Assembly: GCF_014303395.1 (NCBI RefSeq)
Contig: NZ_CP060298.1
Span: 4,793,001-4,857,000, forward strand
Length of the DNA stretch: 64,000 nucleotides
Direction of reading: 5' to 3'
Source: Nakamurella sp. PAMC28650
Lineage (GTDB): Bacteria; Actinomycetota; Actinomycetes; Mycobacteriales; Nakamurellaceae
Shown: positions 48,474 to 63,700 of the stretch, one piece after another
Position numbering within the stretch: the stretch's first letter is position 1
Layout: every line of letters starts with the position of its first letter
Notes under the pieces: generated by a model
Told to the model about the DNA's origin: nothing
Database searches by the model: none
Seen by the model: only the letters and a program-made list of their open reading frames with translations
Position numbers and translations under genes: made by a program

Positions 48474-49870
48474 ATATTTTGGGCTCTTGTGACGTTCTCG
48501 TGGGTGGTTTGACCCCTGGTTGTGGGCGACACACCGGGCTGCGTATAGGTTCTGGCTTATCTAGGGTCAGTCACTATCCAGGAGCACGGTGTGCGCGGTG
48601 TAACGATATGGCGAAAGCTGCTCGGTGTCGAGCAACTGCAGGTGTGCGATGTGGCGTGGGAGGAGGCCGACGACCGGCAGGTGCTGGTCGTTTCGGTGCG
48701 TGCGACGAAGGGCGCCCGGAGTAGGTGCAGTCGATGCCGGCGTAGACGGCCGGGCTATGACCAGGGCGGCGGAACCCGGCGGTGGCGGTCGCTGGACTGG
48801 GGGTCGACGATGGTATTCCTGCAGGCTGCGGCTCCGCGGGTGAACTGCCGGACGCACGGGGTGGTCGTCGCGGCGGTGCCGTGGGCCCGACCCGGCGCGC
48901 GGGCAACCCGAGCGTTTGAAGACCAGTGCGCGTGGTTGGCGGCGCACACCGCTTCGTCGGTGGTGGCGCAGTTGATGCGGACGTCGTGGCGGCACGTGAG
49001 CGCAATCATCGAGCACGTCGTCGCCGACGGTTTGGCCGGCCGGGACGTGCTCGCGGGGCTGCGGCGGATCGGCATCGATGAAATCTCCCACCGCAAAGGC
49101 CAGCGGTATCTGACGTGCGTGGTCGATCAAGACTCCGGCAGATTGGTGTGGGCCGCACCGGGCCGCAACAGCGACACCCTGGGTCGGTTCTTCGACCAAC
49201 TCGGCCCAGAACGGGCGGCGGCGTTGACGCACGTCTCGGCCGACGGGGCGCAGTGGATCCACGACACCGTGACGGCCCGCGCGCCGCAGGCGGTGCTGGG
49301 ATTGGATCCGTTTCATATCGTGGGGTGGGCCACCCGGGAGTTGGACAAGGTCCGTCGTCAGACGTGGAACACGCTGCGGGGTAACAGTAGCTCTGCGCAG
49401 GCGTCGTCGGTGAAGGGCAGCCGCTGGGCATTGCTGAAAAACCCGGCGGACCTGTCCCCGGAGCAACGCGGGTCCCTCGCTTCGATCGCCCAGACCAACC
49501 GGCATCTGTATCGGGCGTATCTGCTGAAGGAGCAACTGCGCGCGGTGTTCCAGGTCAAGGGCCAGGCCGGCCGTGAACTGTTGGCCGGCTGGATCGCCTG
49601 GGCCCGCCGCTCCCAACTCCCCGGCTTCATCGCCCTGGCCGCAACGTTGAAGCGGTTCCAGCAGCTGATTTGGAACACCCTGATCCACCAGATGAGCAAC
49701 GCCCAATCCGAGGCCACCAACACTCACCTACGGGCCTTGACCCGCAGGTCGTACGGCTTTCACAGCCCAGAAGCGTTGATAGCCATGGCAATGCTCACCC
49801 GCGGCGGGTTATGCCCGCCGCTTCCCGGACGCTAAACCACCCACGAAAACGTCAGGAGACCCATATTTTG
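48474..49870 (+). mobile_element. ISL3-family insertion sequence with 8-bp target duplication
   Basis: The IS proper is 48482-49862 (1381 bp). Its ends are 29-bp imperfect inverted repeats matching at 25 positions (left 48482-48510, right 49834-49862). The direct repeat ATATTTTG occurs immediately outside both ends (48474-48481 and 49863-49870), 8 bp as usual for ISL3. One transposase gene fills it. Perfect duplications and an open transposase indicate a recent insertion. Confidence 0.95.
48591..49835 (+). CDS. ISL3-family transposase
   Basis: 414 residues. N-terminal zinc-finger-like Cys cluster (RSRCSRCRRRRPGYD), helix-turn-helix region, and a DDE catalytic domain: IGIDEISHRKGQRYLT (first Asp), HVSADGAQWIHDT (second Asp), ALGLDPFHIVGWA-like LDPFHIVGWATRELDKVRR, and SNAQSEATNTHLR (Glu). 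GTG 48591; the stop codon lies inside the right inverted repeat. Appears complete and functional. Confidence 0.95.
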   Translation: MRGVTIWRKLLGVEQLQVCDVAWEEADDRQVLVVSVRATKGARSRCSRCRRRRPGYDQGGGTRRWRSLDWGSTMVFLQAAAPRVNCRTHGVVVAAVPWARPGARATRAFEDQCAWLAAHTASSVVAQLMRTSWRHVSAIIEHVVADGLAGRDVLAGLRRIGIDEISHRKGQRYLTCVVDQDSGRLVWAAPGRNSDTLGRFFDQLGPERAAALTHVSADGAQWIHDTVTARAPQAVLGLDPFHIVGWATRELDKVRRQTWNTLRGNSSSAQASSVKGSRWALLKNPADLSPEQRGSLASIAQTNRHLYRAYLLKEQLRAVFQVKGQAGRELLAGWIAWARRSQLPGFIALAATLKRFQQLIWNTLIHQMSNAQSEATNTHLRALTRRSYGFHSPEALIAMAMLTRGGLCPPLPGR

Positions 49871-50161
49871 GTGGTCACCCCGTAGGACCCAATTGATGGA
49901 CTACTGCATTTCTGCATCTGTTGCTCTTCGAACCTACTCACCTCGTCCCGTGCCCCGCCCGCCCAGCTGGTCGCCAGCCGACAAGCCCGTAGGAACTACG
50001 ACGAATGTCTCGTTCGGGCCTACCGCTGCGTCTCGACGCAGGGCCGTCGAATGCACGGTGCTGAAGGCCTTCTCGATCCCATACGTTCACTTCGACACCC
50101 GGATCGACACTGGCCCCAGCCGTGCTCGCGCCGTCACCGAAGACGACGAACAGGACAATTG
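49871..50161. other. Leader region of the second ABC importer
   Basis: About 290 bp between the IS and the importer. It should carry the importer promoter unless that was displaced by the insertion. Short TGCAT direct repeats near 49907 are the only feature noticed; no strong -35/-10 pair stands out. Confidence 0.4.
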
Positions 50162-51445
50162 ATGTCTCATCTTGGAGATCGCACCTCATGGCTGCGAGCG
50201 GCCGTCGTTTCGACGGCTGCCGTGCTCGCCGCCGCCACCCTCGCGGGCTGCTCGTCGAGCAGTACTGCGGCCGGCTCTTCCAGCAGCGCCGCCGGCTCCT
50301 CCAGCAGCGCGGCCGGTGCGTCCAGCAGTGCAGCCGGATCGTCCGGCAGTGCGGCTGGCTCGTCCGGAACCGCGGCTGGTCCGAGCGGCGGATCTGCTGT
50401 ATCGGCTGCCGACCTCGCCACGCTGAAGCAGGCACTCGCCGACGCCGCAAAGCAACCGACCTTCACCGCTCAGGGGCCGGCCTTCTCCGTCGCCGGCCTT
50501 GCCGGCAAGAAGATCCTCTCCATGCCCGTCAGCAGCCAGGTCAAGACGTGTGACACGAACTCCCGTCAGATCGTCGACATCGCGAAGAGCGTCGGCATGA
50601 CGGGCAGCACCTACTTCCAGAACAACGGCGGCCCGCAGGCGTGGGTGCAGGGCATGAACCTTGCGATCAGCCAGCACTACGACGGCATCGCGCTGGTCTG
50701 CGGCATCGATCCAGCTGCTCTGGCTCCCCAGATGGCGGCGGCCAAGGCCGCCGGAATCAAGGTCGTCGACATCCACCTCGCCGACGTCTCCGAGCCGGCC
50801 TCGACGTTGATCGCCGGACAGACCGACGGCCAGTTCGACCAGGCGATGCGGATGGGTGTCGCCTCGGCACTGACCCGGGCGAACGGTAGTGCGATCGACT
50901 CGCTGGTGATCACCTCGAACGAGAACCCGCCCTCCATCGGGATGGGTAACACCGTGACGCAGGAGTTCAAGAAGTATTGCGCCGCCTGCAAGGTCGACTC
51001 CATCAATGTCTCGATCCCGGACTGGTCGACGAAGTTGACCAGCGCGGTGCAGTCGGCGCTGGTGCGGAACCCGAACATCAAGGCGGTGTTCACCGTGTAC
51101 GACGCCCAGACGCCGTTCGTGCTGCCCGCGCTGAAGGCTTCCGCCCACGGCGCGATGATGTACGGCTTCGGTATGACGCCCGACGTCGTCCCGCTGATGG
51201 CCGACCCGTCGAACCTGCTGGGTACCAACATGGGTCCGGATGCTTCGTGGATGGCCTACAGCGGCGCCGACCAGCTGTTCCGGGTGATGTCCGGACAACC
51301 CGCCATCGCGGCGTCGAAGGCCTTCGCCCCGTACCGCCTCTTCACGCCGGCCAACGTCGCGGAATTCTCGGCGGCAGGCAAGGGCTTCGGTGACAGCTAC
51401 GTCAAGGGCTACCGCAGCCTGTGGCAGAACGCCCCCGCCGGCTGA
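50162..51445 (+). CDS. Sugar-type (CUT2) ABC substrate-binding lipoprotein
   Basis: 427 residues from ATG 50162: lipoprotein signal STAAVLAAATLAGC, a Ser/Ala/Gly linker with SSSSAAG repeats, then a type-I binding-protein fold (FSVAGLAGKKILSMPVSS, LVCGIDPAALAPQMAAAKAA, NIKAVFTVYDAQTPFVLPAL). Several cysteines in the mature part, as in the first importer's protein, but overall similarity between the two is low. First gene of a three-gene importer operon. Confidence 0.88.
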   Translation: MSHLGDRTSWLRAAVVSTAAVLAAATLAGCSSSSTAAGSSSSAAGSSSSAAGASSSAAGSSGSAAGSSGTAAGPSGGSAVSAADLATLKQALADAAKQPTFTAQGPAFSVAGLAGKKILSMPVSSQVKTCDTNSRQIVDIAKSVGMTGSTYFQNNGGPQAWVQGMNLAISQHYDGIALVCGIDPAALAPQMAAAKAAGIKVVDIHLADVSEPASTLIAGQTDGQFDQAMRMGVASALTRANGSAIDSLVITSNENPPSIGMGNTVTQEFKKYCAACKVDSINVSIPDWSTKLTSAVQSALVRNPNIKAVFTVYDAQTPFVLPALKASAHGAMMYGFGMTPDVVPLMADPSNLLGTNMGPDASWMAYSGADQLFRVMSGQPAIAASKAFAPYRLFTPANVAEFSAAGKGFGDSYVKGYRSLWQNAPAG

Positions 51446-51446
51446 C

Positions 51447-53060
51447 ATGTCCAGCACAACGGCTCTGGAGCTGCGGCACATCTCGAAGGTTTTCGGGGCC
51501 ACGCGTGCTCTGTCCGACGTCGATCTGACGGTCGAGCAGGGTGAGGTGCTCGCGCTGCTCGGCGAGAACGGATGCGGGAAGTCCACCCTGGTCAAGGTTC
51601 TCGCCGGAGTCAACGTCCCGGAACCCGGGGGGTGGCTCGCGGTGGATGGCCGGGAGGTCACGCTGCCGATGGCCCTCGGGGCATCCAGCGGCCTGGGTCT
51701 CAGCTTCGTCCACCAGGACCTCGGCCTCGCGAAACCGCTGACGGTGGTGGAGAATCTGCTCGGAAGCTCGCTGGCGACCGGCGGCCCGTCCCGTCGGCGG
51801 ATCAACTGGCGGCGCGAGATCCGGGCAGCAGCGAAGATGCTCGGTTCCTACGGGGTGAACATCGACCCCCGGTTGGTGGTGAACGACCTGCCACCGGTCG
51901 ACCAGGCCCTGGTGGCGATCGCCCGCGCGGCCGACCAACTCGAGCAGTACCGCGCCCGGACCGGTGCCGCGTCATCGGTTCTCGTTCTCGATGAACCGAC
52001 GGTGTTCCTGCCGGAGCACGAGGTCGAGTTCCTGTTCGATCTCATCCGGCGGGTGGTGGCCTCCGGATCGAGCGTCGTCTTCATCTCGCACGATCTTGCA
52101 GCCGTCCGGGAGATCGCCGACCGCGTGACCATCCTGCGTGACGGCAGGGTGGCAGCCACCGCGGCCATGAGCGACGTGAGTGACGACGAGATCGTCGAGC
52201 TCATCGTCGGTTCGGCCGCCGCCGCCGCTGCGGCCGGTGGACCCGTCGGTGCGGCCCAACGACTGCGACAGTTCGACTCCGGCTCCCCTGCCGCGGTCAC
52301 CGTCACCGGATTGAGAGGTGGTCGGGTCCACGATCTGGACCTGACGGTGGCCCCCGGGGAAGTCGTCGGCCTCGCAGGCCTGATGGGCTCCGGGGTCGAG
52401 GACGTGCCGTACCTGTTGTTCGGCGCCAGACCGGCCGGCGGCACGCTGGCGCTGCGCGACGCGTCGGTCGATCTCACCCGGCACAGCCCGGCGGCGGCGG
52501 TCCGGATGGGCATGGCTCTGATCCCGGCCGACCGGCGACGTGACGCGATCGCCCCGGCCGTGTCGGTGGCGGAGAACATGATGCTCCCGGTGGCGCAACG
52601 GTTCTCCAGGGCCGGCTGGCTCCGCGTCGGTGAGCTGCGGGCCACCGCCGACGAACGCGCGGAACGCTTGGACGTGCGCCCGCGCCGGACCTCGCTTCCG
52701 ATCGGCACGCTGAGCGGCGGCAACGCCCAGAAGGTGGTGCTGGCCAAGTGGTTGGAGATCGAGCCGCGCCTGCTGGTGCTGCACGAACCGACGCAGGGCG
52801 TCGACGTCGCTGCGCGCGCCGAGATCTACCGGGTCATCGAACGGGCGACGACGACGGGTATGTCCGTCATCTGGGTGTCGAGCGACTTCGACGAACTGGC
52901 CACGGTGTGCCATCGGGTGGTCGTGGTGAGCGACGGCCGGCAGGCCGGCCAGGTCGAAGGAGCCGTCATGAGTCCCGAGGCCATCTCGACCGCCGTCTAC
53001 GCCGCAGCGCGAGCGACCACCGAATCGTCCCTCTCGACCACAGAAAAGGTGCACCAGTGA
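51447..53060 (+). CDS. CUT2-type ABC ATPase with degenerate second domain
   Basis: 537 residues. Domain 1: Walker A GENGCGKST, FVHQDLGLAK, Walker B VLVLDEPTVFLP; again no LSGGQ but LPPVDQALVAIARA plus an insert before Walker B, as in the first importer. Domain 2: the Walker A position reads GLMGSGVEDVP (Lys/Ser lost) and Walker B reads LLVLHEPTQGVD (Asp to His), while the signature LSGGNAQKVVLAKWL is kept. Thus only one ATP site per chain can be canonical. ATG one base after the upstream stop. Confidence 0.93.
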   Translation: MSSTTALELRHISKVFGATRALSDVDLTVEQGEVLALLGENGCGKSTLVKVLAGVNVPEPGGWLAVDGREVTLPMALGASSGLGLSFVHQDLGLAKPLTVVENLLGSSLATGGPSRRRINWRREIRAAAKMLGSYGVNIDPRLVVNDLPPVDQALVAIARAADQLEQYRARTGAASSVLVLDEPTVFLPEHEVEFLFDLIRRVVASGSSVVFISHDLAAVREIADRVTILRDGRVAATAAMSDVSDDEIVELIVGSAAAAAAAGGPVGAAQRLRQFDSGSPAAVTVTGLRGGRVHDLDLTVAPGEVVGLAGLMGSGVEDVPYLLFGARPAGGTLALRDASVDLTRHSPAAAVRMGMALIPADRRRDAIAPAVSVAENMMLPVAQRFSRAGWLRVGELRATADERAERLDVRPRRTSLPIGTLSGGNAQKVVLAKWLEIEPRLLVLHEPTQGVDVAARAEIYRVIERATTTGMSVIWVSSDFDELATVCHRVVVVSDGRQAGQVEGAVMSPEAISTAVYAAARATTESSLSTTEKVHQ

Positions 53061-54082
53061 CGTCCGCCCCCATCACCGACCCGAAAACGCCGACGCCACA
53101 GCGACAGTCGCCGCGCACCTCCCCGGCCTGCGGCCGGTCGATCGGGCAGTGGGCCGAACGCTCGGCACTTCCGCTGGCCTGGCTCCTGCTGGTCGTGGTC
53201 TTCTCCATTCTTTCTCCGGACCGGTTCCTCACCAGCGGTAACGTCACGAGCATCCTCGGCTCCCAGTCGATCCTGTTCATGCTGGCCCTGGCCGCACTCG
53301 TCCCCTCGATGGTGGGCGACATCGATCTGTCGCTCGGCGCTACGGGTGCGCTGGCCGCCGTGGTGATCGCGGTGCTCAACGTGCAGCACGGCGTACCGGT
53401 CGGAGTGGCCTGCCTGATCGCGGTCGCGGTCGGCGCCGCCTGCGGTGGAGTCAACGCATTGTTCGTGGTGATGTTCAAGACCGAGCCGTTCATCGTCACG
53501 CTCGGCACGGGCACGTTCTTCACCGGCCTGGTCTTCTGGCTGGCGAACTCGACGACCATCGTCGGGGTGTCCGGCGACCTGGCGAACTGGACCTTCCTGC
53601 GCCAGGTCGGAAAGGTGCCGGTGCAGTTCTACTACTGCGTCCTGATCATGCTGATCATCTGGTACGTCGCACGCTTCACCCCGGTCGGGATGCGGGCGCT
53701 GTTCGTCGGGCAGTCGCGGGACGTCGCGGTCCTGAGCGGGATCAAGGTCACCCGGGTGCGGGTGGGTGCGTTCATCCTGGCCGGCACCATCGCCGCTCTG
53801 GCCGGTGTCCTCTACGTCGGCACCACCGGCTCCGCCGGCCCGTCCTCGGTCGACACGTTCCTGCTGCCCGCGTATGCCGCGGTCTTCCTGGGTGCGACCT
53901 CGATCCAGCCCGGTCGGTTCAACGCGCTCGGCACCGGGATCGCAGTGCTGTTCCTGGCCACCGGTGTGGCGGGGTTGCAACTTCTCGGGGCCCAGGATTT
54001 CGCCCAGCAACTTTTCTACGGTGCCGCTCTCGTGGCCGCCGTCACGCTCTCCCGACTCGTCCGCCGCCCTTCGACCCGGTAG
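53057..54082 (+). CDS. CUT2-type ABC permease (BPD_transp_2)
   Basis: 341 residues, hydrophobic, about 8-10 helices: LVPSMVGDIDLSLGATGAL, EPFIVTLGTGTFFTGL, LFVGQSRDVAVLSGIKV (coupling loop), FLGATSIQPGRFNALGTG. GTG 53057 overlaps the ATPase stop. Completes the second importer. A short GACCCGGTAGCCGCTC direct duplication lies just past its end (54076-54107). Confidence 0.92.
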   Translation: MTSAPITDPKTPTPQRQSPRTSPACGRSIGQWAERSALPLAWLLLVVVFSILSPDRFLTSGNVTSILGSQSILFMLALAALVPSMVGDIDLSLGATGALAAVVIAVLNVQHGVPVGVACLIAVAVGAACGGVNALFVVMFKTEPFIVTLGTGTFFTGLVFWLANSTTIVGVSGDLANWTFLRQVGKVPVQFYYCVLIMLIIWYVARFTPVGMRALFVGQSRDVAVLSGIKVTRVRVGAFILAGTIAALAGVLYVGTTGSAGPSSVDTFLLPAYAAVFLGATSIQPGRFNALGTGIAVLFLATGVAGLQLLGAQDFAQQLFYGAALVAAVTLSRLVRRPSTR

Positions 54083-54169: not shown

Positions 54170-55186
54170 TCAGGGCAGGTCGATGCTGACGGTCCCCGGT
54201 TCGCGGTGCGAGTGGGAGCCCGCGCCCCCCACGGGTGGCGGGCCGACCACCCGCGACACGCAGGACTGCAGGCGATCGTTCCGCTGCCGCTGGGCTTCGC
54301 TGAGGAAGACATCCCGGTGGTCGATGACGCCCCGCACCTCGAGGACCTTGATCTGGCACAGGCCGCACTCTCCGCGACGGCAGTCGGACATCATCTCCAC
54401 ACCAGGGGATTCCAGCGCCTCGAGCATGGAAACATCGCCAGCCACCGTTGTCTCCAGGCCCAGTCGAGGGATCACCAGCCTGAAGGCCTCCGAGTCGAAT
54501 CGTCCACCGCTTCCGAACGTCTCGAATCGGAGATCGGCGGGACGCCGGCCGGCTCGAGCCCAGGTCGCCTGGATCGCCGCCAGCATCGGAGCCGGCCCGC
54601 AGAAGTAGAGCTCGCCGCCGGGCGGAACGCCCGCCACGAGTGCCTCGATGTCGATTCGACCGCCCTCGTCACCGATGTGCAGGTCCATCCGATCACCGTG
54701 TTCGGCGACGAGTTCGTCGGCGAAGGCCATGGCCGCCCGTGATCTGCCGGCGTAGACGAAGCGGTAGTCCGCCCCGCGGGTCTTGAGGGCCCTGCCCATC
54801 GCGACGAGGGCGGTGATCCCGATGCCGCCCGCCACCAGGACGTACGCCGGCGCGCCATAGCCGAGCGGGAAGTTCTGCAGGGGCTCGGTGATCCGCACCC
54901 GTTGCCCGGGACGCATCCCATGGAGGGAAGCCGAGCCGCCGCGGGTCGGCTCCGCCAGTTGGACGCCGATGACGATTTGATTGCGCCGTGGACCGCAGTC
55001 CACGACCGAATACGAGCGGACCTCGGATCGCCCGTGGACCTCGACTGCGATGTCGACGTGGCTGCCCGGCGCCGCCGGGGTCTGCATCCGGTCCGGTGAC
55101 AGCACGATCCGGCGCACGCGCTGCGCGATGACATCCACCTCCACTACCTGCGCACCTGTCCACACCTGGTGATGGGCGGCAGCCAT
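54170..55186 (-). CDS. VanB/phthalate dioxygenase reductase-type oxidoreductase
   Basis: 338 residues carrying FMN (VRSYSVVD), NAD(H) (YVLVAGGIGITALVAMG, YFCGPAPML) and a C-terminal plant-type [2Fe-2S] ferredoxin domain (SDCRRGECGLCQ, later LQSCVSR). Passes electrons from NADH to the Rieske oxygenase, whose stop codon directly abuts this start. Possibly ends at the 54140-54180 GCAGATCG-type repeats. A normal length for the family. Confidence 0.92.
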   Translation of the reverse strand: MAAAHHQVWTGAQVVEVDVIAQRVRRIVLSPDRMQTPAAPGSHVDIAVEVHGRSEVRSYSVVDCGPRRNQIVIGVQLAEPTRGGSASLHGMRPGQRVRITEPLQNFPLGYGAPAYVLVAGGIGITALVAMGRALKTRGADYRFVYAGRSRAAMAFADELVAEHGDRMDLHIGDEGGRIDIEALVAGVPPGGELYFCGPAPMLAAIQATWARAGRRPADLRFETFGSGGRFDSEAFRLVIPRLGLETTVAGDVSMLEALESPGVEMMSDCRRGECGLCQIKVLEVRGVIDHRDVFLSEAQRQRNDRLQSCVSRVVGPPPVGGAGSHSHREPGTVSIDLP

Positions 55187-56305
55187 CTACCGGGACCGGT
55201 CTCCGGTGTGGATCGACGAGAACTGCTCGTCGGTCACGGTTTCGGCGGCGATCATCTGCGCGACGATCCGCCGCGTCCACATGCTGCCGGCATCGATGTT
55301 GAGGTTGTAGAAGTCGTAGCCCGGGTTGGCGTCGATGCCGCGCTGCTGGGCTTCCAGCATGACCTCGTCCTCGAAGAAGATCCGGGAGACGCCTTCCCGC
55401 ATGCGGGTGGTGATGGCCTGTTTGTCGATGCACCAGTCGCGGGCGAAGGACCAGAGGTAGCGGCAGGTGTTGGCGGTCGCCGGCGTCATGGTGTTGATGA
55501 CCGTCCCGGTCACGCCCTGACTGCGATCACCCTGCGCGGCACCGGTTCCGGCCTTGGCCACGCCCACGTCGATCGTGACGGTCGAAGGAGCCGTGTACCG
55601 AATGATCTGCCAACGGTCGACCAGCCCGGCATAGTCGGGGAATCGATCCTGTAGCGCCTGCCTCCACACCGGCGGCGGCTCGATGCCCAGCATCCACTTG
55701 GTCACCGTGACCGTCCGATCGGTGTGGGTCACCTCGAACTCCGATTCCGACAGTCCGTCGTGACCGATGCTCGAGCCGTGGACGAACTGCTCGTGCGTGA
55801 GGTCCATCAGATTGTCGACGACAAGCTGGTACCCGCAACCCACCTCGATCGTCCGACCGTCGCCGGCCCAGTCCGGGTGCTCGTTCCAGAACAGATCCGG
55901 CACCGTGGTGGGATCCGCGAGGGCCGGATCGCCCGGCCAGACCCAGACGAAGCGGTGCCGCTCGACCACCGGGTAGGAATGCACGGTGGCGCTGGGATTG
56001 ATGGTGTCCTGCGCAGGCATGAAGGTGGCGCGGCCCCTGCTGTCGTAACAGATGCCGTGGTAGCCGCACATGATCTCGTCGTCCCCGCGCAGCGTACCCA
56101 TCGACAGCGGCACCAGTCGGTGCCAGCACGCGTCGGCCAGTGCGACGGTCCGCCCCGAGGTCGTGCGGTACAGCACCATCGGCCGACCGGCCACCGTTCT
56201 GGCGGTCAGGGATCGACCCACCTCGTGGTCCCAGGCGGCGGCGTACCACGCATCGAGCGGGAAGTGCCGCACCGCTGCGTCCGACTCCTGCTGTGACTCC
56301 GACAT
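55187..56305 (-). CDS. VanA-like Rieske oxygenase (aromatic O-demethylase type)
   Basis: 372 residues. Rieske cluster: DACWHRLVPLSMG and MCGYHGICYD (CxH...CxxH). Mononuclear iron: DNLMDLTHEQFVHGSSIG (Asp/His/His). The C-terminal YNLNIDAGSMWTRRIV also matches vanillate O-demethylase. VanA relatives remove methyl from vanillate, syringate, 3-O-methylgallate or dicamba; the exact methoxy-aromatic is open. ATG 56305 begins family homology. Forms a two-gene operon with the reductase, divergent from a sensor kinase. Confidence 0.9.
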   Translation of the reverse strand: MSESQQESDAAVRHFPLDAWYAAAWDHEVGRSLTARTVAGRPMVLYRTTSGRTVALADACWHRLVPLSMGTLRGDDEIMCGYHGICYDSRGRATFMPAQDTINPSATVHSYPVVERHRFVWVWPGDPALADPTTVPDLFWNEHPDWAGDGRTIEVGCGYQLVVDNLMDLTHEQFVHGSSIGHDGLSESEFEVTHTDRTVTVTKWMLGIEPPPVWRQALQDRFPDYAGLVDRWQIIRYTAPSTVTIDVGVAKAGTGAAQGDRSQGVTGTVINTMTPATANTCRYLWSFARDWCIDKQAITTRMREGVSRIFFEDEVMLEAQQRGIDANPGYDFYNLNIDAGSMWTRRIVAQMIAAETVTDEQFSSIHTGDRSR

Positions 56306-56513: not shown

Positions 56514-58109
56514 GTGCACATCGATGTCACCGCGACCACTCCGGCCTGGCCGCCCGCCAGCACCGCCGAAGTGGTGTTGCGCGCCCTCGTGGATGTGTCC
56601 GCGGATGGTCTGGCCGTACTCGACGGCGACGGTCGTTTCGTCGGGTTGAACGCGAACGCCGCCGCCATCCTGGGGCTTCCGGACACCGAGCTGGTCGGAC
56701 GAACGGCGCCGTTCGCGATCGACCCGCTGTCCGAGGATCCGGTCGGTGGGATGCACACGACGGCCTGGACCACGCAGGACCGGCGTCGGCGTGACCTCGA
56801 GTACCGCCTCGAGCACATTCCCGGGCAGGCGGCGTCCGGGCAGGTGGTGTGGTTTCGGGACGTGACAGATGCGCTACGCCAACAGGAACGGCTGACCGCC
56901 ATCGTGCGGGTGGCGTCCAGCGTTGCCGACGCCGGGTCGCTGCACGCGACCCTCGACGCCGTTGCGCACGAGATCTTCATGACGGCGAACATCGCCGCGG
57001 TGCAGATCCATCTGGCGATGGACGACCCGCGGGACGAGGTACGGATCCTGGGCATGGCGGGCTTCGGGGACTCCACCGGTTTCACCGAGCGCCTGAGCGC
57101 CTGCCGCCGGTTGGGTGCCGACATCCGCTTCCTGGAAGCCATCGAGCGGGTCGAGGCGGTCGTCATCCCGCACCGCAAGGCCACCGTGATGGCGGATCCG
57201 GACTGGGCGCCCCTGCATTCGATCATGGATCATCCGAACTGGGACGGCTTCGTGGCGATGCCCCTGGTGGTGCGGGGTCGGGCGCTGGGCGTCATCAACG
57301 CCTACTACGTGCCGGGCGAGGATCCCGGACCGCAATCGCTGGACTTCCTGCGGGCGATGGCCGACTACGCCGCGGTCGCCATCGACACCGCCCAGTTGCT
57401 GGCCCAGACCCGCTCCCAGGTGCGACTCGAGGAGCGCCGGCGGCTGTCCAGGGACCTGCACGATTCCGTGGTGCAGCAACTGTTCTCGATGCGGATGCAG
57501 ACCACGGCGCTGCGGTCCGCGGCCGACCGGGAGGACCTCGACACGGCCTCGGTCTGCGGCGCCGCCGAGGAGCTCGCCGAACTGGCCCAGAATGCGCTGG
57601 CCGACGTCCGCCGACTCATGTTCGAGCTCCGTCCCCTCGACCTCACCGAGCGGGATCTGTTCGACGCGGTGCGGGCCCATGCCGCCAGCCTGCAGGCCAG
57701 GACCGGGTTGATCGTCGACGTCCGCGCACCGTCCGGCGTCGAGTCCGACCTGGACATCGACCTCCAGGAGGACCTCTACCGGATCGTCCAGGAGGCACTG
57801 CAGAACGTCGTCAAACACGCAAGGGCCACGGCGGTGAGCATCCTCATCACCGACACCGACCACGGTGACGGGCTCGTCGTGGAGGTGTCGGACGACGGAT
57901 GCGGTCCACACCTGGATTCCGGGACGACGACCGACGCTCCGGCGGCGACACTGGGGCTCATGTCGATGCGCGAACGCACCGAGAGGTGGGGCGGCCAACT
58001 GCTCGTCGGGCCACGCCCCACCGGCGGCTGGTCGGTGCGGGCCACCCTGCTCAGAGTGGGCAGGCCGGTGCGCCACACCACCGACCGTGGCCGCGGGGGT
58101 GGGCGATGA
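56514..58109 (+). CDS. PAS-GAF sensor kinase of the NarX/DesK (HisKA_3) class
   Basis: 531 residues: PAS (about 15-115; ALVDVSADGLAVLDGDG), GAF (about 130-300), HisKA_3 (RRRLSRDLHDSVVQQLFSM with the phospho-His) and HATPase (YRIVQEALQNVVKHA, VSDDGCGPH, LGLMSMRERT). No membrane helices. GTG 56514 is supported by GGGTGGGAA upstream. Coupled to its response regulator by ATGA. Its place opposite the VanA-like operon suggests sensing of an aromatic ligand. Confidence 0.91.
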   Translation: MHIDVTATTPAWPPASTAEVVLRALVDVSADGLAVLDGDGRFVGLNANAAAILGLPDTELVGRTAPFAIDPLSEDPVGGMHTTAWTTQDRRRRDLEYRLEHIPGQAASGQVVWFRDVTDALRQQERLTAIVRVASSVADAGSLHATLDAVAHEIFMTANIAAVQIHLAMDDPRDEVRILGMAGFGDSTGFTERLSACRRLGADIRFLEAIERVEAVVIPHRKATVMADPDWAPLHSIMDHPNWDGFVAMPLVVRGRALGVINAYYVPGEDPGPQSLDFLRAMADYAAVAIDTAQLLAQTRSQVRLEERRRLSRDLHDSVVQQLFSMRMQTTALRSAADREDLDTASVCGAAEELAELAQNALADVRRLMFELRPLDLTERDLFDAVRAHAASLQARTGLIVDVRAPSGVESDLDIDLQEDLYRIVQEALQNVVKHARATAVSILITDTDHGDGLVVEVSDDGCGPHLDSGTTTDAPAATLGLMSMRERTERWGGQLLVGPRPTGGWSVRATLLRVGRPVRHTTDRGRGGGR

Positions 58110-58783
58110 ACGACGCCACGCCTGCGGTCATCCGGGTGGCCGTGGTCGACGACCATGCGTTCGTGCGGCGGGGGGTCCGCGCCTACCTCGACACCGTGCC
58201 TTCGGTCGAGGTCATCGGGGAGGCCAACGACGGGGAGCAGATGATTGCTCTGCTGGAGCAGTGGCGGACCACCGCCGAGCCGTTGCCGCACGTCATCCTG
58301 ATGGACCTCCAGATGCCGGGCATGGGCGGTGTCGAAGCCACCGAGGCCATCGCCCGGGCGTACCCCGACGTCCGGGTCGTGGTGCTGACGAGCTTCGGTG
58401 AGGTCGAACGGGTGCATGCGGCGCTCGCCGCGGGCGCCGCCGGCTACCTGCTCAAGGATGCGGATCCCCACGATGTCGGCAGCGCCATCCGGGACGCCGC
58501 GGCCGGCCGGGTTCACCTGGACTCGACGGTCGCCCGACAACTCGCGCGGCGAATGGCCGCCCCCAAGATCGGCCTGTCGGGCCTGACCGCGCGGGAACGG
58601 GAAATTCTGGTCCTGGTGGCACAAGGGTTGTCCAACAACGACATCGCCAGCAGGCTGGTGATCAGCGACCGCACCGCCCGCACCCACGTGAGCAATGTGC
58701 TGAGCAAGCTGCAACTCTCGCCCCGGACGCAGGCCGCACTGCTGGCCATCCGCGAAGGTTTGATCACCGCGCCACCCTCCTGA
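58106..58783 (+). CDS. NarL/LuxR-family response regulator
   Basis: 225 residues: receiver (RVAVVDDHAFVRRGVRAYL; acceptor in HVILMDLQMPGMGG; YLLKDADPHDV) and LuxR-type HTH (GLTAREREILVLVAQGLSNN, DIASRLVISDRTARTHVSNV). Partner of the kinase at 56514. Likely targets are the divergent Rieske operon and the following ring-cleavage operon. Confidence 0.94.
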   Translation: MNDATPAVIRVAVVDDHAFVRRGVRAYLDTVPSVEVIGEANDGEQMIALLEQWRTTAEPLPHVILMDLQMPGMGGVEATEAIARAYPDVRVVVLTSFGEVERVHAALAAGAAGYLLKDADPHDVGSAIRDAAAGRVHLDSTVARQLARRMAAPKIGLSGLTAREREILVLVAQGLSNNDIASRLVISDRTARTHVSNVLSKLQLSPRTQAALLAIREGLITAPPS

Positions 58784-58928: not shown

Positions 58929-59657
58929 ATGCCCCACGACGCCGAGACACCATCCATCCTGGTGATCAGCGCTCACTCCGGTGACTTCGTCTGGCGGGCC
59001 GGCGGGGCGATCGCCCTGTCCGCCCAACGGGCCTGCGCCGTCCACGTGCTCTGCTTGAGCTTCGGCGAACGGGGCGAGTCCCAGGGTTTGTGGAAGCAGC
59101 CGGAGATGACGCTCGAGCGGGTCAAGGAGGCCCGGCGGGCCGAGGCCACCGCCGCTGCCGAGGTTCTCGGGGCCAGCATCGAATTCCTCGACCTCGGCGA
59201 CTACCCGCTGACGGTCGACGCCGCCGCAGTCGAGCAGATCGTCCAGGTGCTGCGTGAACGGCAACCGGAAGTCCTGCTGACGCATGTCGCCGACGACCCG
59301 TACAACCGCGACCACAACCTGGCCCACGAGACCACCCTGCTGACCCGGATGGTCGCCCAGGCCCATGGCCACGACCGCACCACCCGTCCCCTGGGCGCCT
59401 CCCAGGTCCTCCAGTTCGAACCGCACCAGCCGGAGGTCTGCGGCTTCAACCCCGACCTGCTCCTTGACATCACACCGGTGTTCGACATCAAGGCCAAGGC
59501 GATGGCCTGCATGACGGCGCAGGATCACCTGTTGCGCTACTACACCGATCTGGGCAGCCGGCGGGGTGTGCAGGCGGTGCGCAACGGTGCGCCGTCGACC
59601 GTCACCCACGCCGAGGCCTACCAGCGCACCTTCCCGACGGTCGGCAGCGATCTGTGA
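58929..59657 (+). CDS. PIG-L-family protein, probable 4-oxalomesaconate hydratase
   Basis: 242 residues. PIG-L metal motifs: VISAHSGDFVWRAGG (usual AHPDD replaced by AHSGD) and DPYNRDHNLAHETT. GalB, the 4-oxalomesaconate hydratase of Pseudomonas gallate degradation, belongs to this family, and here the gene is directly followed by a LigK/GalC-type aldolase and LigAB, so hydration of 4-oxalomesaconate is the best guess. A sugar deacetylase role is less likely. ATG 58929 begins the operon. Confidence 0.83.
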   Translation: MPHDAETPSILVISAHSGDFVWRAGGAIALSAQRACAVHVLCLSFGERGESQGLWKQPEMTLERVKEARRAEATAAAEVLGASIEFLDLGDYPLTVDAAAVEQIVQVLRERQPEVLLTHVADDPYNRDHNLAHETTLLTRMVAQAHGHDRTTRPLGASQVLQFEPHQPEVCGFNPDLLLDITPVFDIKAKAMACMTAQDHLLRYYTDLGSRRGVQAVRNGAPSTVTHAEAYQRTFPTVGSDL

Positions 59658-60346
59658 TGAACGGACACGTGATCGTGCGGACCGATCGCCGGCCCGACCC
59701 TGACGCCGTCGCCACGCTCGCGCACGTCGGCGTGGCCACCGGTCACGAAGCCATGGGCCGGCGAGGTCTCGCCCAGCCGGTGCTTCGTCCCATCTACCCC
59801 GGGGCCCGCATCGCCGGCCGGGCCGTCACGGTGCTGAGCCACCCCGGCGACAACCTGATGATCCACGCCAGCATCGAGCAGTGCGGCCCGGGCGACATCC
59901 TCGTCGTCACCACCACTTCCCCGTCCACGGACGGCATGTTCGGCGAGCTGTTCGCCGTCCAACTGGCCGCCCGCGGCGTTCGCGGCCTGGTCATCGACGC
60001 CGGGGTGCGGGATGTCGCGGCACTCACCGCCATGGGCTTTCCCGTGTGGTCGCGCGCAGTCTCGGCCCAGGGCACCGTCAAGGCGAGTCCGGGTTCGGTC
60101 AACGTTCCGGTGGTGATCGCGGGCTGCCACCTCCGGCCCGGTGACGTCGTCGTGGCCGATGACGACGGCGTGCTCTGCGTCCCCCTGTCCCTGGCCCCTG
60201 AGGTCGCCGGGAAGGCCGTCGCCCGCGAGGCGTCCGAGGCGGACAAGATCGAGCAGTTCCGTTCGGGTGTACTGGGTCTGGACCTCTACGGGATGCGGCC
60301 GACGCTCGACCGGCTCGGTGTCGTCTACGTCGACGAGTCTGCGTGA
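59654..60346 (+). CDS. 4-carboxy-4-hydroxy-2-oxoadipate aldolase (LigK/GalC, RraA-like)
   Basis: 230 residues of RraA fold: AVTVLSHPGDNLMIHASIE, GDILVVTTTSPSTDGMFGEL, VRGLVIDAGVRDVAAL and PGDVVVADDDGVLCVP. The G-x-x-x-D-x-x-x-R-D metal motif is VIDAGVRD. Splits the hydrated product into pyruvate and oxaloacetate. GTG 59654 gives GTGA coupling; ATG 59657 is equally possible. Confidence 0.88.
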   Translation: MMNGHVIVRTDRRPDPDAVATLAHVGVATGHEAMGRRGLAQPVLRPIYPGARIAGRAVTVLSHPGDNLMIHASIEQCGPGDILVVTTTSPSTDGMFGELFAVQLAARGVRGLVIDAGVRDVAALTAMGFPVWSRAVSAQGTVKASPGSVNVPVVIAGCHLRPGDVVVADDDGVLCVPLSLAPEVAGKAVAREASEADKIEQFRSGVLGLDLYGMRPTLDRLGVVYVDESA

Positions 60347-61086
60347 GCACGTTCGTCCTGGTGCACGGGGCGTGGCACGGCGGCTGGTGCTGGGACCGGG
60401 TCGCCCCGCTGCTGCGGGCCGCCGGTCACGAAGTCCACTCCCCCACCCTCACCGGGCTGTCCGAGCGGGCCCACCTCCTGTCGCCTCAGGTCGGCCTGGA
60501 CACCCACACGGAGGACGTGGTCCGGCTGATCGACGTGCTGCAATTGCAGCAGGTGGTGCTGGTCGGCCACAGCTACGCCGGCCAGATCGTCAGCGCAGTG
60601 GCGGACCGGCGTCCCGGCATCGTCGGCCTGCGCGTCTATCTCGACGCTTTCGTGGGGACAGACGGGGAATCGGCCCGGGAGCTGCTGCCGCCCACGGTGG
60701 AGCACCACTGGGCGGAGTCCGCAGCCCAGGACGGTTTCGGATGGTTGGTACCGGTACGGAAGCTCACCGTCCTCGGCGTCACAGAACCGGCCGATATCGA
60801 CTGGCTCACACCGCGTCTCACCCCTCATCCCTGGAAGACCTACACCGACCGCCTACGGCTGACCGGCGCCGCGGACGAGACGCCGGCCGCCTTCATCGAG
60901 TGCGTCTCGTGGATGCGGGTATTCCGCGACCAGGCCGACCGGGCACGCGAGCGAGGCTGGCCGGTGCACGAGCTCCGGACCGGCCACGAAGCGATGGTGA
61001 CCGAACCGGCGGCCCTGTCCGCCGTACTGCTGGCCCTGGCCGCGGAACGAACTGCCCCATCGGCAGCACCACAGCGAGGGAGATGA
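60343..61086 (+). CDS. Alpha/beta hydrolase (salicylate-esterase/hydroxynitrile lyase type)
   Basis: 247 residues: FVLVHGAWHGGWCWDRV (oxyanion region), nucleophile elbow LVGHSYAGQIV, and a late TGHEAMVTEPAAL with the catalytic His. GTG 60343 overlaps the aldolase stop. In this operon it could hydrolyse an ester such as an alkyl gallate, or open a lactone such as 2-pyrone-4,6-dicarboxylate in place of LigI; both are inference. Confidence 0.82.
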   Translation: MSTFVLVHGAWHGGWCWDRVAPLLRAAGHEVHSPTLTGLSERAHLLSPQVGLDTHTEDVVRLIDVLQLQQVVLVGHSYAGQIVSAVADRRPGIVGLRVYLDAFVGTDGESARELLPPTVEHHWAESAAQDGFGWLVPVRKLTVLGVTEPADIDWLTPRLTPHPWKTYTDRLRLTGAADETPAAFIECVSWMRVFRDQADRARERGWPVHELRTGHEAMVTEPAALSAVLLALAAERTAPSAAPQRGR

Positions 61087-61087
61087 C

Positions 61088-61366
61088 GTGGAGTTTCTCG
61101 TCCGGTCCGAGAACCGGCTGCCCCCGGAGACATCCGCCGAGCGGCGGGCCGAGTTGCGAGCGGCGGAACGGGTCCGCGCGATGGAACTGCGGGCGGCCGG
61201 CACCCTACGGCGACTGTGGCGGGTGCCCGGCCGCAACGCCACCGTCGGCCTGTACGAGGCCGACGACCCCGCCGCCCTGCACGACGCGCTGATGTCCCTG
61301 CCGATGGCACCGTGGCTCGACGTCACCGTGGAGGCACTGGCCCAGCACCCCCAGGAACGATCGTGA
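61088..61366 (+). CDS. Muconolactone isomerase-like small protein
   Basis: 92 residues beginning MEFLVRSENRLPPETS, with ERVRAMELRAAGTLRRLWR and a C-terminal MAPWLDVTVEALAQHP. This matches the CatC/muconolactone delta-isomerase fold and length (about 95), but no ortho-cleavage genes are nearby. It may catalyse a different isomerisation, for example keto-enol tautomerisation of the LigAB product. Coupled to LigA by GTGA. Confidence 0.83.
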   Translation: MEFLVRSENRLPPETSAERRAELRAAERVRAMELRAAGTLRRLWRVPGRNATVGLYEADDPAALHDALMSLPMAPWLDVTVEALAQHPQERS

Positions 61367-61743
61367 CGACCTCGGGGGGTGCACCGGTGGGCGGGGAGAC
61401 ACCGGGGCGTACCGACACCTACGTGTTCGACGGCCAGACGAGCCGGCGGGGGTATCCCATGAACAAGATGTTCATGAGCCTGCGCACCGCCGCCGACCGC
61501 GAACGCTTCCTGGCCGACGAGCAGGCCTACTGCACGGAGTTCGGGCTGACCCCGGGACAGCAGACGGCGGTGGCCGACCGGGACTGGAACGCCATGCTCG
61601 ACCTCGGCGGCAGCATCTTCTACGTCTACAAGCTCGCCATGCTCGACGGCCGGTCCATGCAGTACCTCGGCGGCGTCTTCACCGGGATGACCGAAGACGA
61701 ATTCGTGGCGGCACTACGCTCGGGAGGGCGAATCAATGGCTGA
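61363..61743 (+). CDS. ligA: LigA-like extradiol dioxygenase alpha subunit
   Basis: 126 residues: YVFDGQTSRRGYPMNKMFMS, RERFLADEQAYCTEFGLT, NAMLDLGGSIFYVYKLAMLD and QYLGGVFTGMTEDEF. This is the small helical subunit that covers the active site of LigB in protocatechuate 4,5-dioxygenase. GTG 61363; overlaps ligB by 8 bases. Fused versions occur in gallate dioxygenases. Confidence 0.92.
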   Translation: MTTSGGAPVGGETPGRTDTYVFDGQTSRRGYPMNKMFMSLRTAADRERFLADEQAYCTEFGLTPGQQTAVADRDWNAMLDLGGSIFYVYKLAMLDGRSMQYLGGVFTGMTEDEFVAALRSGGRING

Positions 61744-62593
61744 ACTGATCTGGGGCCTCGCGACGTCGCACGTGCCGTCCATCGGGTCTGCCATGGATCG
61801 CGGCAAGACCCAGGATCCCTATTGGAAACCATTGTTCGATGGATACCAACCGGCGCGGGACTGGATGGCCCGGCACCGACCGGACATCGTGCTGGTCGTC
61901 TACAACGACCATGCCAACGGGGTCGACCTCGACATCATCCCGACCTTCGCGATCGGAACCGCCGAGCGGTACCAGGTCGCCGACGAGGGTTTCGGACGGC
62001 GTCCGGTACCGGATGTCGTAGGGGCGCCGGACCTTTCGCTGCACCTGGTGCAGAGCCTGATGGACGAGGGCTTCGATCTGACCGTCTTCCAGCAACTCGA
62101 CGTCGACCACGGCCTCACCGTGCCACTCTCGATCTTCTGCCCCGATCCGGGCGACGCCTGGCCGTGTGCGGTCGTGCCGCTGTTGGTCAACGTCATCCAG
62201 TACCCGCAGCCCACCGCCGCGCGCTGCTACGCACTCGGTCAGGCGATCGGGCGGGCCATCGCGGGTTTCGACTCGGACGTGAAGATCGCCATCTTCGGCA
62301 CCGGCGGGATGTCCCACCAACTCGCCGGGGCCCGGGCCGGCTTCATCAATCCCACCTTCGACCACATGTTCCTGGACGCCATCGAGAACGACCCGCAATC
62401 ACTGGCCGCCCTGACTCGCGAGGACTACATCACCCAGGCCGGCTCGGAGGGCATCGAGCTGATCATGTGGTTGGTGATGCGGGGTGCCATGCAACCCACG
62501 ATCCAGCTGGTGCACTCCACCTATCACGTCCCGGCCTCCAATACCGCTGCTGCGTTGGCGCTGTACGACAACCGGGCACCGCAGGGCATCTGA
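61736..62593 (+). CDS. ligB: LigB-like extradiol dioxygenase beta subunit (protocatechuate/gallate type)
   Basis: 285 residues with the LigB iron site: His12 in ATSHVPSIG, His59 in VVYNDHANG, Glu near 241 in SEGIELIMW, and catalytic His194 in GTGGMSHQLAG. Also VDHGLTVPLSI. Opens the ring of protocatechuate at 4,5 or of gallate/3-O-methylgallate. Last gene of the coupled operon starting at 58929. Confidence 0.94.
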   Translation: MAELIWGLATSHVPSIGSAMDRGKTQDPYWKPLFDGYQPARDWMARHRPDIVLVVYNDHANGVDLDIIPTFAIGTAERYQVADEGFGRRPVPDVVGAPDLSLHLVQSLMDEGFDLTVFQQLDVDHGLTVPLSIFCPDPGDAWPCAVVPLLVNVIQYPQPTAARCYALGQAIGRAIAGFDSDVKIAIFGTGGMSHQLAGARAGFINPTFDHMFLDAIENDPQSLAALTREDYITQAGSEGIELIMWLVMRGAMQPTIQLVHSTYHVPASNTAAALALYDNRAPQGI

Positions 62594-62642: not shown

Positions 62643-62671
62643 TTGACCGCGTGGCCGCCTCCTCCTAGTAT
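62643..62671 (+). promoter_or_regulatory. Sigma-70-type promoter of the SnoaL-MarR operon
   Basis: TTGACC (62643-62648) and TAGTAT (62666-62671) are spaced by 17 bp. Transcription would start inside the palindrome that follows. Confidence 0.75.
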
Positions 62672-62702
62672 CTGCATACGTGCAATAGTTGCGCGTATGC
62701 AG
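62672..62702. promoter_or_regulatory. Candidate MarR operator
   Basis: A 31-bp near-perfect palindrome: CTGCATACG-T-GCAA, centre TAG, then TTGC-G-CGTATGCAG. It directly abuts the -10 box and ends 18 bp before the SnoaL-like start, an ideal repressor site for the MarR gene in the same operon. Confidence 0.8.
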
Positions 62703-62720
62703 CTAATGGGAGGAGTTCCG

Positions 62721-63161
62721 ATGGATGCAACCAAAGGCGAGAGCGCCGCGATGGTGGGCCTGTTCGAGCGTCAGGCGGCCACCTGGAATGCCGGTGACGC
62801 CGCCGGGTACGCCGCGTGCTTCACCCTCGATGCGGAGTACGTCACCTGGGTGGGGACGCGCTACCGCGGAAGAGCGGACATCGAACGCTCCCACGCGGCC
62901 CTGTTCCGCAGGTTCCTCAGGGGCACGACCATGCGCTGGGAGATCATCTCGGTGCGGACCCTGGCCGGCGGTACGGCGGTGGTCCTCACCCGGGGCGACG
63001 TGGCGAAGCCGCGGCCGCGACGACTGACCAGGGTGCAGACCTATGTCGTCGTCGACAGCCCGGAAGGGTTGCAGGTGGCTTCTTTCCACAACACCAGGCG
63101 GCGGCCGCTGATCGAATCGCTGTCGTTCCGCGCCGCGCCGCAGACCCGGCCGGCCGGGTGA
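62721..63161 (+). CDS. SnoaL-like (SgcJ/EcaC-type) small protein
   Basis: 146 residues from ATG 62721, with GGAGGAG upstream; an ATG at 62697 lies inside the operator palindrome and is rejected. NTF2 fold: MVGLFERQAATWNAGDAAGY, YVTWVGTRYRGRADIERSH, VASFHNTRRRPL. No catalytic function can be assigned. Coupled to marR by GTGA, so it belongs to the same regulated unit. Confidence 0.82.
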   Translation: MDATKGESAAMVGLFERQAATWNAGDAAGYAACFTLDAEYVTWVGTRYRGRADIERSHAALFRRFLRGTTMRWEIISVRTLAGGTAVVLTRGDVAKPRPRRLTRVQTYVVVDSPEGLQVASFHNTRRRPLIESLSFRAAPQTRPAG

Positions 63162-63700
63162 ACCGCTCGGTCAGATCGCTGCTGCGCAAACGCAGTGCCG
63201 TCTATCGCGAGTACCTCGGCGCGGTCGTGGCCAACGGACAGGCCAACGCGGATTCGACCGGTCTGCACCCCACCGATGTCCGTGCGCTCGACGTGCTGCA
63301 GGCGTGCGGGCCGTTGAACGCCGGTCAGCTGGCCGACAAGGTGGGGTTGAGCACGGGGGCCACGACCCGGTTGGTGGACCGACTCGAGACGTCGAGCTAC
63401 GTGCGTCGTGACCCGGGGTCGCAGGACCGGCGCAGCGTGACGGTGTCGGTCACCACGGAGAGCGTCGATCACCTGCGTCAGGTGTTCGAGCCGACCCGGC
63501 ATCGGCTGGGCGAGCTGCTGCAGACCTATTCGGTCGAACAGCTGGAAGTGCTTTTCGACTACTTCGAACGGGCTACCCCCGTGTTGCGCGAGGCAGCCGA
63601 GGAGACCCGGCGGAAATACCGTGACGACCTCGGCCGGGCCGCCTCGCGACCGCGCCATCGAGCTGTGGTGGCGGTACCGCGGGTCAGTCCGGAGGCATGA
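63158..63700 (+). CDS. MarR-family regulator
   Basis: 180 residues: LDVLQACGPLNAGQLADKVG, LSTGATTRLVDRLETSSYV (recognition helix) and wing RRDPGSQDRRSVTVSVT with the MarR D-x-R signature. GTG 63158 overlaps the SnoaL-like stop. Probably represses its own operon through the palindrome at 62672. Its 3' end overlaps the convergent MDR gene by 17 bp. Confidence 0.9.
   Translation: MNRSVRSLLRKRSAVYREYLGAVVANGQANADSTGLHPTDVRALDVLQACGPLNAGQLADKVGLSTGATTRLVDRLETSSYVRRDPGSQDRRSVTVSVTTESVDHLRQVFEPTRHRLGELLQTYSVEQLEVLFDYFERATPVLREAAEETRRKYRDDLGRAASRPRHRAVVAVPRVSPEA

Follow-up and report, generated by a model that had tools for sequence, protein, structure and literature searches.

A muconolactone-isomerase-family protein in a Nakamurella LigAB operon and a proposed linear pathway for syringate and 3-O-methylgallate

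How might a bacterium complete aromatic ring cleavage by a LigAB-type dioxygenase when the genes for LigC and LigI do not accompany it? The question is raised by an operon of Nakamurella sp. PAMC28650, which occupies positions 58929-62593 of the forward strand in a 64,000-nucleotide stretch of contig NZ_CP060298.1 (hereafter the window). Its six co-directional, tightly packed genes encode a PIG-L protein, an RraA/LigK-like protein, an alpha/beta hydrolase, a muconolactone-isomerase-family protein (MIase), LigA and LigB; ligC and ligI are not among them. Judging from sequence, we consider it quite probable that this operon and the divergent vanAB-like genes nearby encode a linear pathway for syringate and 3-O-methylgallate, in which LigC and LigI are best read as bypassed, not replaced. 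The proposed route is a variant of one described in 2025, the linear pathway of Pseudomonas NGC7. We infer its reactions, substrates and regulation from what is directly established, namely gene content, family membership, conserved residues, genome-wide absences and conserved gene company.

In the proposed pathway, VanAB would take one methyl group off syringate to give 3-O-methylgallate, whose ring LigAB would open to yield the methyl ester CHMOD. The alpha/beta hydrolase would then split the ester, pre-empting ring closure of CHMOD to the pyrone PDC and releasing 4-carboxy-2-hydroxymuconate (CHMA) and methanol. Next, the MIase could move a proton or double bond to generate an isomer acceptable to GalB, which would hydrate it, and GalC would finally cleave the hydrated product to pyruvate and oxaloacetate. 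LigC would be unneeded because no aldehyde forms, and LigI because there would be no pyrone to open. The genes concerned are as follows.

54170-55186, minus strand: VanB-like reductase with FAD and 2Fe-2S domains (Pfam FAD_binding_6, Fer2), adjoining the VanA-like gene; putative member of the pathway
55187-56302, minus strand: VanA-like Rieske oxygenase (Pfam VanA_C, 151.5 bits; Rieske), proposed syringate O-demethylase
56514-58109, plus strand: sensor histidine kinase with PAS and GAF domains (Pfam); start set by inspection, search query from 56550
58106-58783, plus strand: LuxR-type response regulator (Pfam Response_reg, GerE)
58929-59657, plus strand: GalB-type hydratase of PIG-L fold (structure match 5cgz)
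59654-60346, plus strand: LigK/GalC-type 4-carboxy-4-hydroxy-2-oxoadipate aldolase (TIGR02798, NF006731)
60343-61086, plus strand: alpha/beta hydrolase (Pfam; model near 6tj2 and SABP2), proposed CHMOD methylesterase
61088-61366, plus strand: MIase (PF02426, 105.8 bits), proposed CHMA/oxalomesaconate isomerase
61363-61743, plus strand: LigA, alpha subunit (PF07746, 120 bits), start at 61363 or 61387
61736-62593, plus strand: LigB, catalytic subunit (nearest structure 1b4u_B)

All six operon proteins match their Pfam families (PIG-L, RraA-like, Abhydrolase_6, MIase, LigA and LigB) above cut-off, as an earlier, sequence-only reading of this DNA had assigned them. That reading also described the genes as overlapping, which holds for PIG-L/LigK and LigK/hydrolase (4 bp each) and for LigA/LigB (8 bp) but not for the hydrolase and MIase genes, which are separated by a 1-bp gap. 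The start of LigA is uncertain between GTG codons at 61363, which would give a 4-bp overlap with the MIase gene, and 61387; the LigA query used in searches (61381-61743) is in frame and has no start codon at its beginning. The vanAB-like genes diverge from the operon, and the sensor kinase and response regulator lie upstream of it; this neighbouring two-component system probably controls the operon.

The company kept by these genes is conserved elsewhere. We compared the best 80 of 302 confirmed LigB relatives in genome contigs, whose record titles name actinobacteria, and scored gene content by tblastn with reference proteins; the resulting counts are lower bounds, several stretches being cut by contig ends. 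LigA is found in all 80 loci, the hydrolase in 68, the MIase in 65, a sensor kinase in 60, a regulator in 58, a LigM/DesA-like demethylase in 47, VanB in 28, VanA in 24, LigJ in 3 and GalD in 2, with LigC and LigI in 0. The MIase always occurs with the hydrolase (65/65), and the hydrolase stands without it in three loci. In L021, L031 and L065, among eight loci laid out gene by gene, VanB, GalB, GalC, VanA, hydrolase, MIase, LigA and LigB are all co-directional. An O-demethylase is present in 71 of the 80, either VanA-like (24) or LigM/DesA-like (47) and never both. That two unrelated demethylases attach to one ring-opening module argues for a methoxylated substrate. Gene content and relatives thus lend support to a suggestion of the sequence-only reading, that the substrate might be 3-O-methylgallate and ligC and ligI accordingly dispensable.

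Could LigC and LigI, or substitutes for them, instead be encoded elsewhere? The genome, a single contig of 5.63 Mb and 100% complete, yields no match to a LigI query; it holds eight amidohydrolase matches that were not examined individually. Such an empty result calls for a control; the LigIs of four reference clusters match one another at 63-78%. A LigC query finds only 17 generic Gfo/Idh/MocA relatives. The best of them reaches 76.7 bits, with 34% identity across 165 of 315 residues, whereas the true LigCs of the same four clusters match one another at 55-68% with 359-438 bits (both queries came from a Paraburkholderia plasmid, and the clusters were picked partly for their LigC/LigI annotations). 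The absence noted in the operon therefore extends to the genome, as far as these genes can be recognised, and it is shared by galD, as PrpF, the family of GalD and LigU, has 0 matches there in a search that was positive in 2 of 14 control genomes. These results bear on the reading that LigAB serves a standard protocatechuate 4,5-cleavage pathway whose substitutes for LigC and LigI have gone unrecognised. The structure nearest to LigB is indeed protocatechuate 4,5-dioxygenase (1b4u_B, E 7.1e-99), and LigA, the only copy in the genome, falls just under the cut-off for protocatechuate LigA (107.7 versus 108.6 bits). However, both missing enzymes are also lacking from the 80 loci, and the genome encodes protocatechuate 3,4-dioxygenase, with PcaG and PcaH over their cut-offs and PcaD over its cut-off nearby, so protocatechuate has another route. 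With LigC and LigI lacking and PcaGH present, we reject this reading as highly improbable. A third intradiol dioxygenase of the genome falls below all cut-offs.

As in the NGC7-type pathway, the dioxygenase has two LigAB-like chains, LigA and LigB being encoded separately. The presumed functional residues of LigB (His12, His59, His125, His194 and Glu241) are conserved in 87 of 87 aligned rows. Plain gallate is a possible LigAB substrate. In a gallate pathway, both methyl groups would be removed first or gallate would be taken up, LigAB would act as a gallate dioxygenase, the MIase would stand in for GalD as 4-oxalomesaconate tautomerase, and the hydrolase would free gallate from an ester or do something else. 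GalB and GalC are present and PrpF is absent, as this reading would have it. Moreover, the parts of published reports used here describe Phe103 of SYK-6 LigA as controlling C5 selectivity, with some replacements raising activity on both gallate and 3-O-methylgallate (PMC10094722), and place Glu in DesB at the site where LigAB has Phe (PMC3962378). The corresponding residue is Met in the window and in 66 of the 67 rows with MIase and hydrolase, which include the window and the Rhodococcus opacus relative L096; the remaining row has Leu. By contrast, the one-chain GalA and the GalD of the gallate pathway are both missing, given the separate LigA and LigB and the genome without PrpF, and LigB reaches 324.6 bits against a one-chain gallate dioxygenase cut-off of 412, a shortfall partly due to length. 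The gallate pathway would also leave unexplained a hydrolase that recurs in most related loci and wherever the MIase does. We regard it as unlikely.

The hydrolase finds a task in the syringate/3-O-methylgallate pathway that we prefer. According to the parts of the report used here, ring opening turns 3-O-methylgallate into the methyl ester CHMOD, which cyclises to PDC unaided by an enzyme (PMC8091115), and a methylesterase is therefore needed; the suggestion of the sequence-only reading that 4-oxalomesaconate would arise directly from 3-O-methylgallate does not survive this chemistry. The predicted structure of the hydrolase (pLDDT 84.5) is nearest to 6tj2, a SABP2-like bacterial hydrolase (Z 28.8, 2.0 A, 229 aligned residues), followed by SABP2 itself (1xkl; Z 26.1, 2.5 A, 231 aligned) and, lower, MES16 (5hk8; Z 24.9, 2.6 A, 222 aligned). 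Its Ser77 and His215 recur in every one of 20 aligned rows. The sequence-only reading had offered the hydrolase as a replacement for LigI. In that case LigAB would make PDC from 3-O-methylgallate via CHMOD and the hydrolase would open the pyrone, a reading compatible with the non-enzymatic closure of CHMOD and with the absence of LigI from the genome and all 80 loci. Nevertheless, the fold lies nearest to SABP2-type methylesterases, and Pseudomonas NGC7 lacking the corresponding hydrolase, MgaC, converts syringate to PDC at 95% mol/mol, a compound that NGC7 cannot use; its authors inferred CHMOD hydrolysis by MgaC from this accumulation (PMC12314914, in the parts of that report used here). Ester chemistry and modelled fold lead us to propose that a CHMOD methylesterase fits better, and a LigI substitute appears very unlikely.

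The lower part of the pathway is represented by a hydratase and an aldolase, as in the NGC7-type linear route. The sequence-only reading had recognised the PIG-L protein and left its role unassigned. Its match to the 4-oxalomesaconate hydratase GalB (5cgz, E 5.6e-75) stands far apart from those to the next PIG-L structures (1.9e-6 or weaker), and sequence comparison identifies it as a GalB-type hydratase. The HPDDE-type deacetylase motif reads HSGDF in this protein, and the position of the Asp that we take to be the general base of PIG-L deacetylases is Gly or Ala in 39 of 41 GalB rows (the window, L096, L100 and 38 loci), the other two having no coverage. A Glu and a His, presumably catalytic in GalB, are kept in 37 rows (one Asp, three gaps) and 40 rows (one gap), respectively. 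The aldolase scores 308.8 bits on TIGR02798 (cut-off 304.5) and 326 on NF006731 (cut-off 179). Because the PIG-L protein matches GalB, the operon holds both enzymes.

What, then, does the MIase do? It belongs to the family by PF02426 (105.8 bits) and by fold, its model (pLDDT 93.9) matching ClcF (3znu; Z 15.7, 1.9 A, 89 aligned residues). All 67 operon MIase rows have Glu27, the residue exchanged for Ala in the substrate complex of ClcF E27A (3zo7). Fold and Glu27 are thus common to CatC/ClcF and the operon protein, which differs in reaching only 77.8 bits on the CatC equivalog TIGR03221 (cut-off 130.6) and in operon-specific residues such as Asn9, Leu40, Pro47 and Gly54 (67 operon rows). In a tree built on only 93 columns and with long outsider branches, a branch with SH-aLRT 83 has the operon members all to one side. 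Muconolactone isomerase is a cofactor-free enzyme that catalyses a 1,3-proton shift, which is the kind of chemistry that the isomerisation step needs. Because the ClcF fold and Glu27 persist, the MIase probably keeps this proton-transfer chemistry on a new substrate. A stray CatC of a catechol pathway is not what the surroundings suggest: the neighbours examined include no catechol gene, although no search for catB was made. The other MIase matches in the genome are one 31-residue stretch and one below cut-off.

The sequence-only reading cast the CatC-like protein as the 4-oxalomesaconate tautomerase. That role is possible in Nakamurella, whose genome lacks PrpF; as a general rule that the MIase simply replaces GalD, it is weakened by relatives. 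PrpF occurs in 32 of 50 genomes searched among the 65 with MIase and hydrolase. Of 18 PrpF places inspected in larger stretches, 13, in 13 genomes, adjoin GalC, GalB, LigJ or LigI and five have no such neighbour; in two further genomes (L020, L029) GalD lies inside the LigB locus. Because MIase and a GalD-like gene coexist in at least 15 relatives, the common role of the MIase is more likely one step earlier, in the CHMOD/CHMA isomerisation, a step attributed to MgaD in NGC7. The other 18 of the 50 genomes resemble that of Nakamurella in having no PrpF, and 15 of them have GalB and three LigJ. All eight genomes with a GalB at least 70% identical lack PrpF (Fisher p 8e-5, with the threshold chosen afterwards and kinship not corrected). 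In PrpF-less genomes, by this reckoning from gene content, GalB must be able to accept the product of the hydrolase or MIase without GalD. A LigU-like DUF1932 protein as tautomerase finds weak matches (29-33%) in six of the 80 loci and none in the window.

More broadly, we suggest tentatively, at somewhat less than even confidence, that a branch of the MIase family was recruited as a carboxyhydroxymuconate/oxalomesaconate isomerase across many actinobacteria in the place of MgaD, making GalD/LigU dispensable in lineages like that of Nakamurella. Titles and abstract openings of part of the literature matches included none joining muconolactone isomerase to 3-O-methylgallate breakdown. The window is not alone in missing a tautomerase: a protocatechuate 4,5-cleavage cluster on Arthrobacter keyseri plasmid pRE1 (L098) has LigJ but, in its 14.2-kb stretch, nothing that matches GalD or DUF1932.

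The entry step is represented by the divergent neighbour of the operon, a VanAB-type O-demethylase by its VanA_C and Rieske domains. Its nearest solved structure is dicamba O-demethylase (3gb4, E 5.2e-49). Because of its position, and because it is the sole VanA_C protein in the 5.6-Mb genome, VanA may serve the operon. A LigM/DesA-type demethylase is not found in the genome, the best match having 26% identity and 24.6 bits. In Rhodococcus ruber R1, according to the parts of the report used here (PMC9867520), VanAB demethylates syringate as far as 3-O-methylgallate, which is no substrate for it; this product is the very compound that the operon route would need.

Several observations weigh against the syringate/3-O-methylgallate pathway or parts of it. 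First, the VanA of Nakamurella shares 32-35% identity with those of the 24 loci, which form a different subgroup, and its gene points away from the operon; it could serve vanillate. Second, GalC and GalB appear in only 39 and 38 of the 80 stretches, respectively, 12 loci have neither hydrolase nor MIase, and 9 have no demethylase. Third, the fold comparison separates SABP2 from hydroxynitrile lyases and a pyrethroid hydrolase by no more than about 1. Finally, Met103 of LigA fails as a specificity signature: it fits the pathway but proves nothing, because all 12 loci that lack both hydrolase and MIase have it too, as does L099, a LigC/LigI cluster. Ten of those 12 loci (L019, L025, L026, L033, L037, L040, L044, L045, L050 and L059) carry a LigM/DesA-like demethylase; perhaps both methyl groups are removed first there and a gallate route follows.

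The NGC7 syringic acid pathway (vanA1B1, mgaAB, mgaC, mgaD, galBCD; PMC12314914) is the closest known system. In the parts of that report used here, it shares with Nakamurella a VanAB-type demethylase, a two-chain LigAB-like dioxygenase, a clustered alpha/beta hydrolase, GalB, GalC and the lack of LigI. The Nakamurella operon, however, has the MIase where NGC7 has SnoaL-type MgaD (MgaC and MgaD being compared by description, not sequence), places galBC in the dioxygenase operon, and is accompanied by a two-component system where NGC7 has VanR2 and GalR; its genome lacks the PrpF-type GalD that NGC7 possesses. The NGC7 authors also report Actinomycetes in which every step, that of a GalD-type tautomerase included, has a homologue of >50% identity; the Nakamurella genome would fail this count because it has no PrpF. 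In the DesA-LigAB-DesC-DesD route of Novosphingobium aromaticivorans, 3-O-methylgallate is likewise opened to CHMOD, on which a demethylating hydrolase and then a cis-trans isomerase follow (PMC8091115, PMC6888825, as far as the parts used here describe it). DesC and DesD are likened to the hydrolase and MIase by description; the LigM/DesA class of demethylase is common to this route and the R. opacus relative. A difference is that sphingomonads possess LigI, and with it a branch through PDC, in addition. Finally, the galA-galBCD system of Pseudomonas putida KT2440 shares GalB and GalC, whereas Nakamurella lacks one-chain GalA and GalD and adds the hydrolase, MIase and vanAB.

Syringyl units make up a large part of hardwood lignin, and syringate is a common lignin fragment; we found little published on actinobacterial genes for syringyl breakdown. 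The locus offers a compact, nearly complete gene set and predicts that a textbook enzyme family has taken on a new task. It also suggests a one-deletion route from syringate to PDC, a polymer building block, as in NGC7. The two mutually exclusive demethylase classes on one ring-opening module point, in addition, to repeated assembly of the same solution. In L096, on R. opacus plasmid NZ_CP082159.1, the LigAB-hydrolase-MIase module lies beside a LigM-like demethylase (5x1i, E 3.6e-133). Other neighbours there are genes for methylene-tetrahydrofolate (THF) reductase, formyl-THF deformylase, folE, folP, pabB and a Mur-ligase-family protein, and the plasmid appears to be equipped with a folate supply of its own for O-demethylation.

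Behind the Nakamurella operon lies a SnoaL-like gene (62721, ATG, to 63161), for which membership in the operon is unsupported: it has its own promoter-like site (62643-62671) and was found in none of the 80 related loci. A 27-nt inverted repeat (62659-62715; 85% complementary, its 14-bp half-sites exact but for one base) begins within this site, and an open reading frame with a MarR domain follows the gene. Together they look like a self-contained MarR-controlled unit (region 62643-63700). At the other end, a possible importer is encoded upstream of vanB by genes of a sugar-type ABC transporter (50051-54082) for a binding protein, a double ATPase and a permease, and some 4.3 kb beyond the vanAB end of the region there is an ISL3-family transposase gene (48591-49835).

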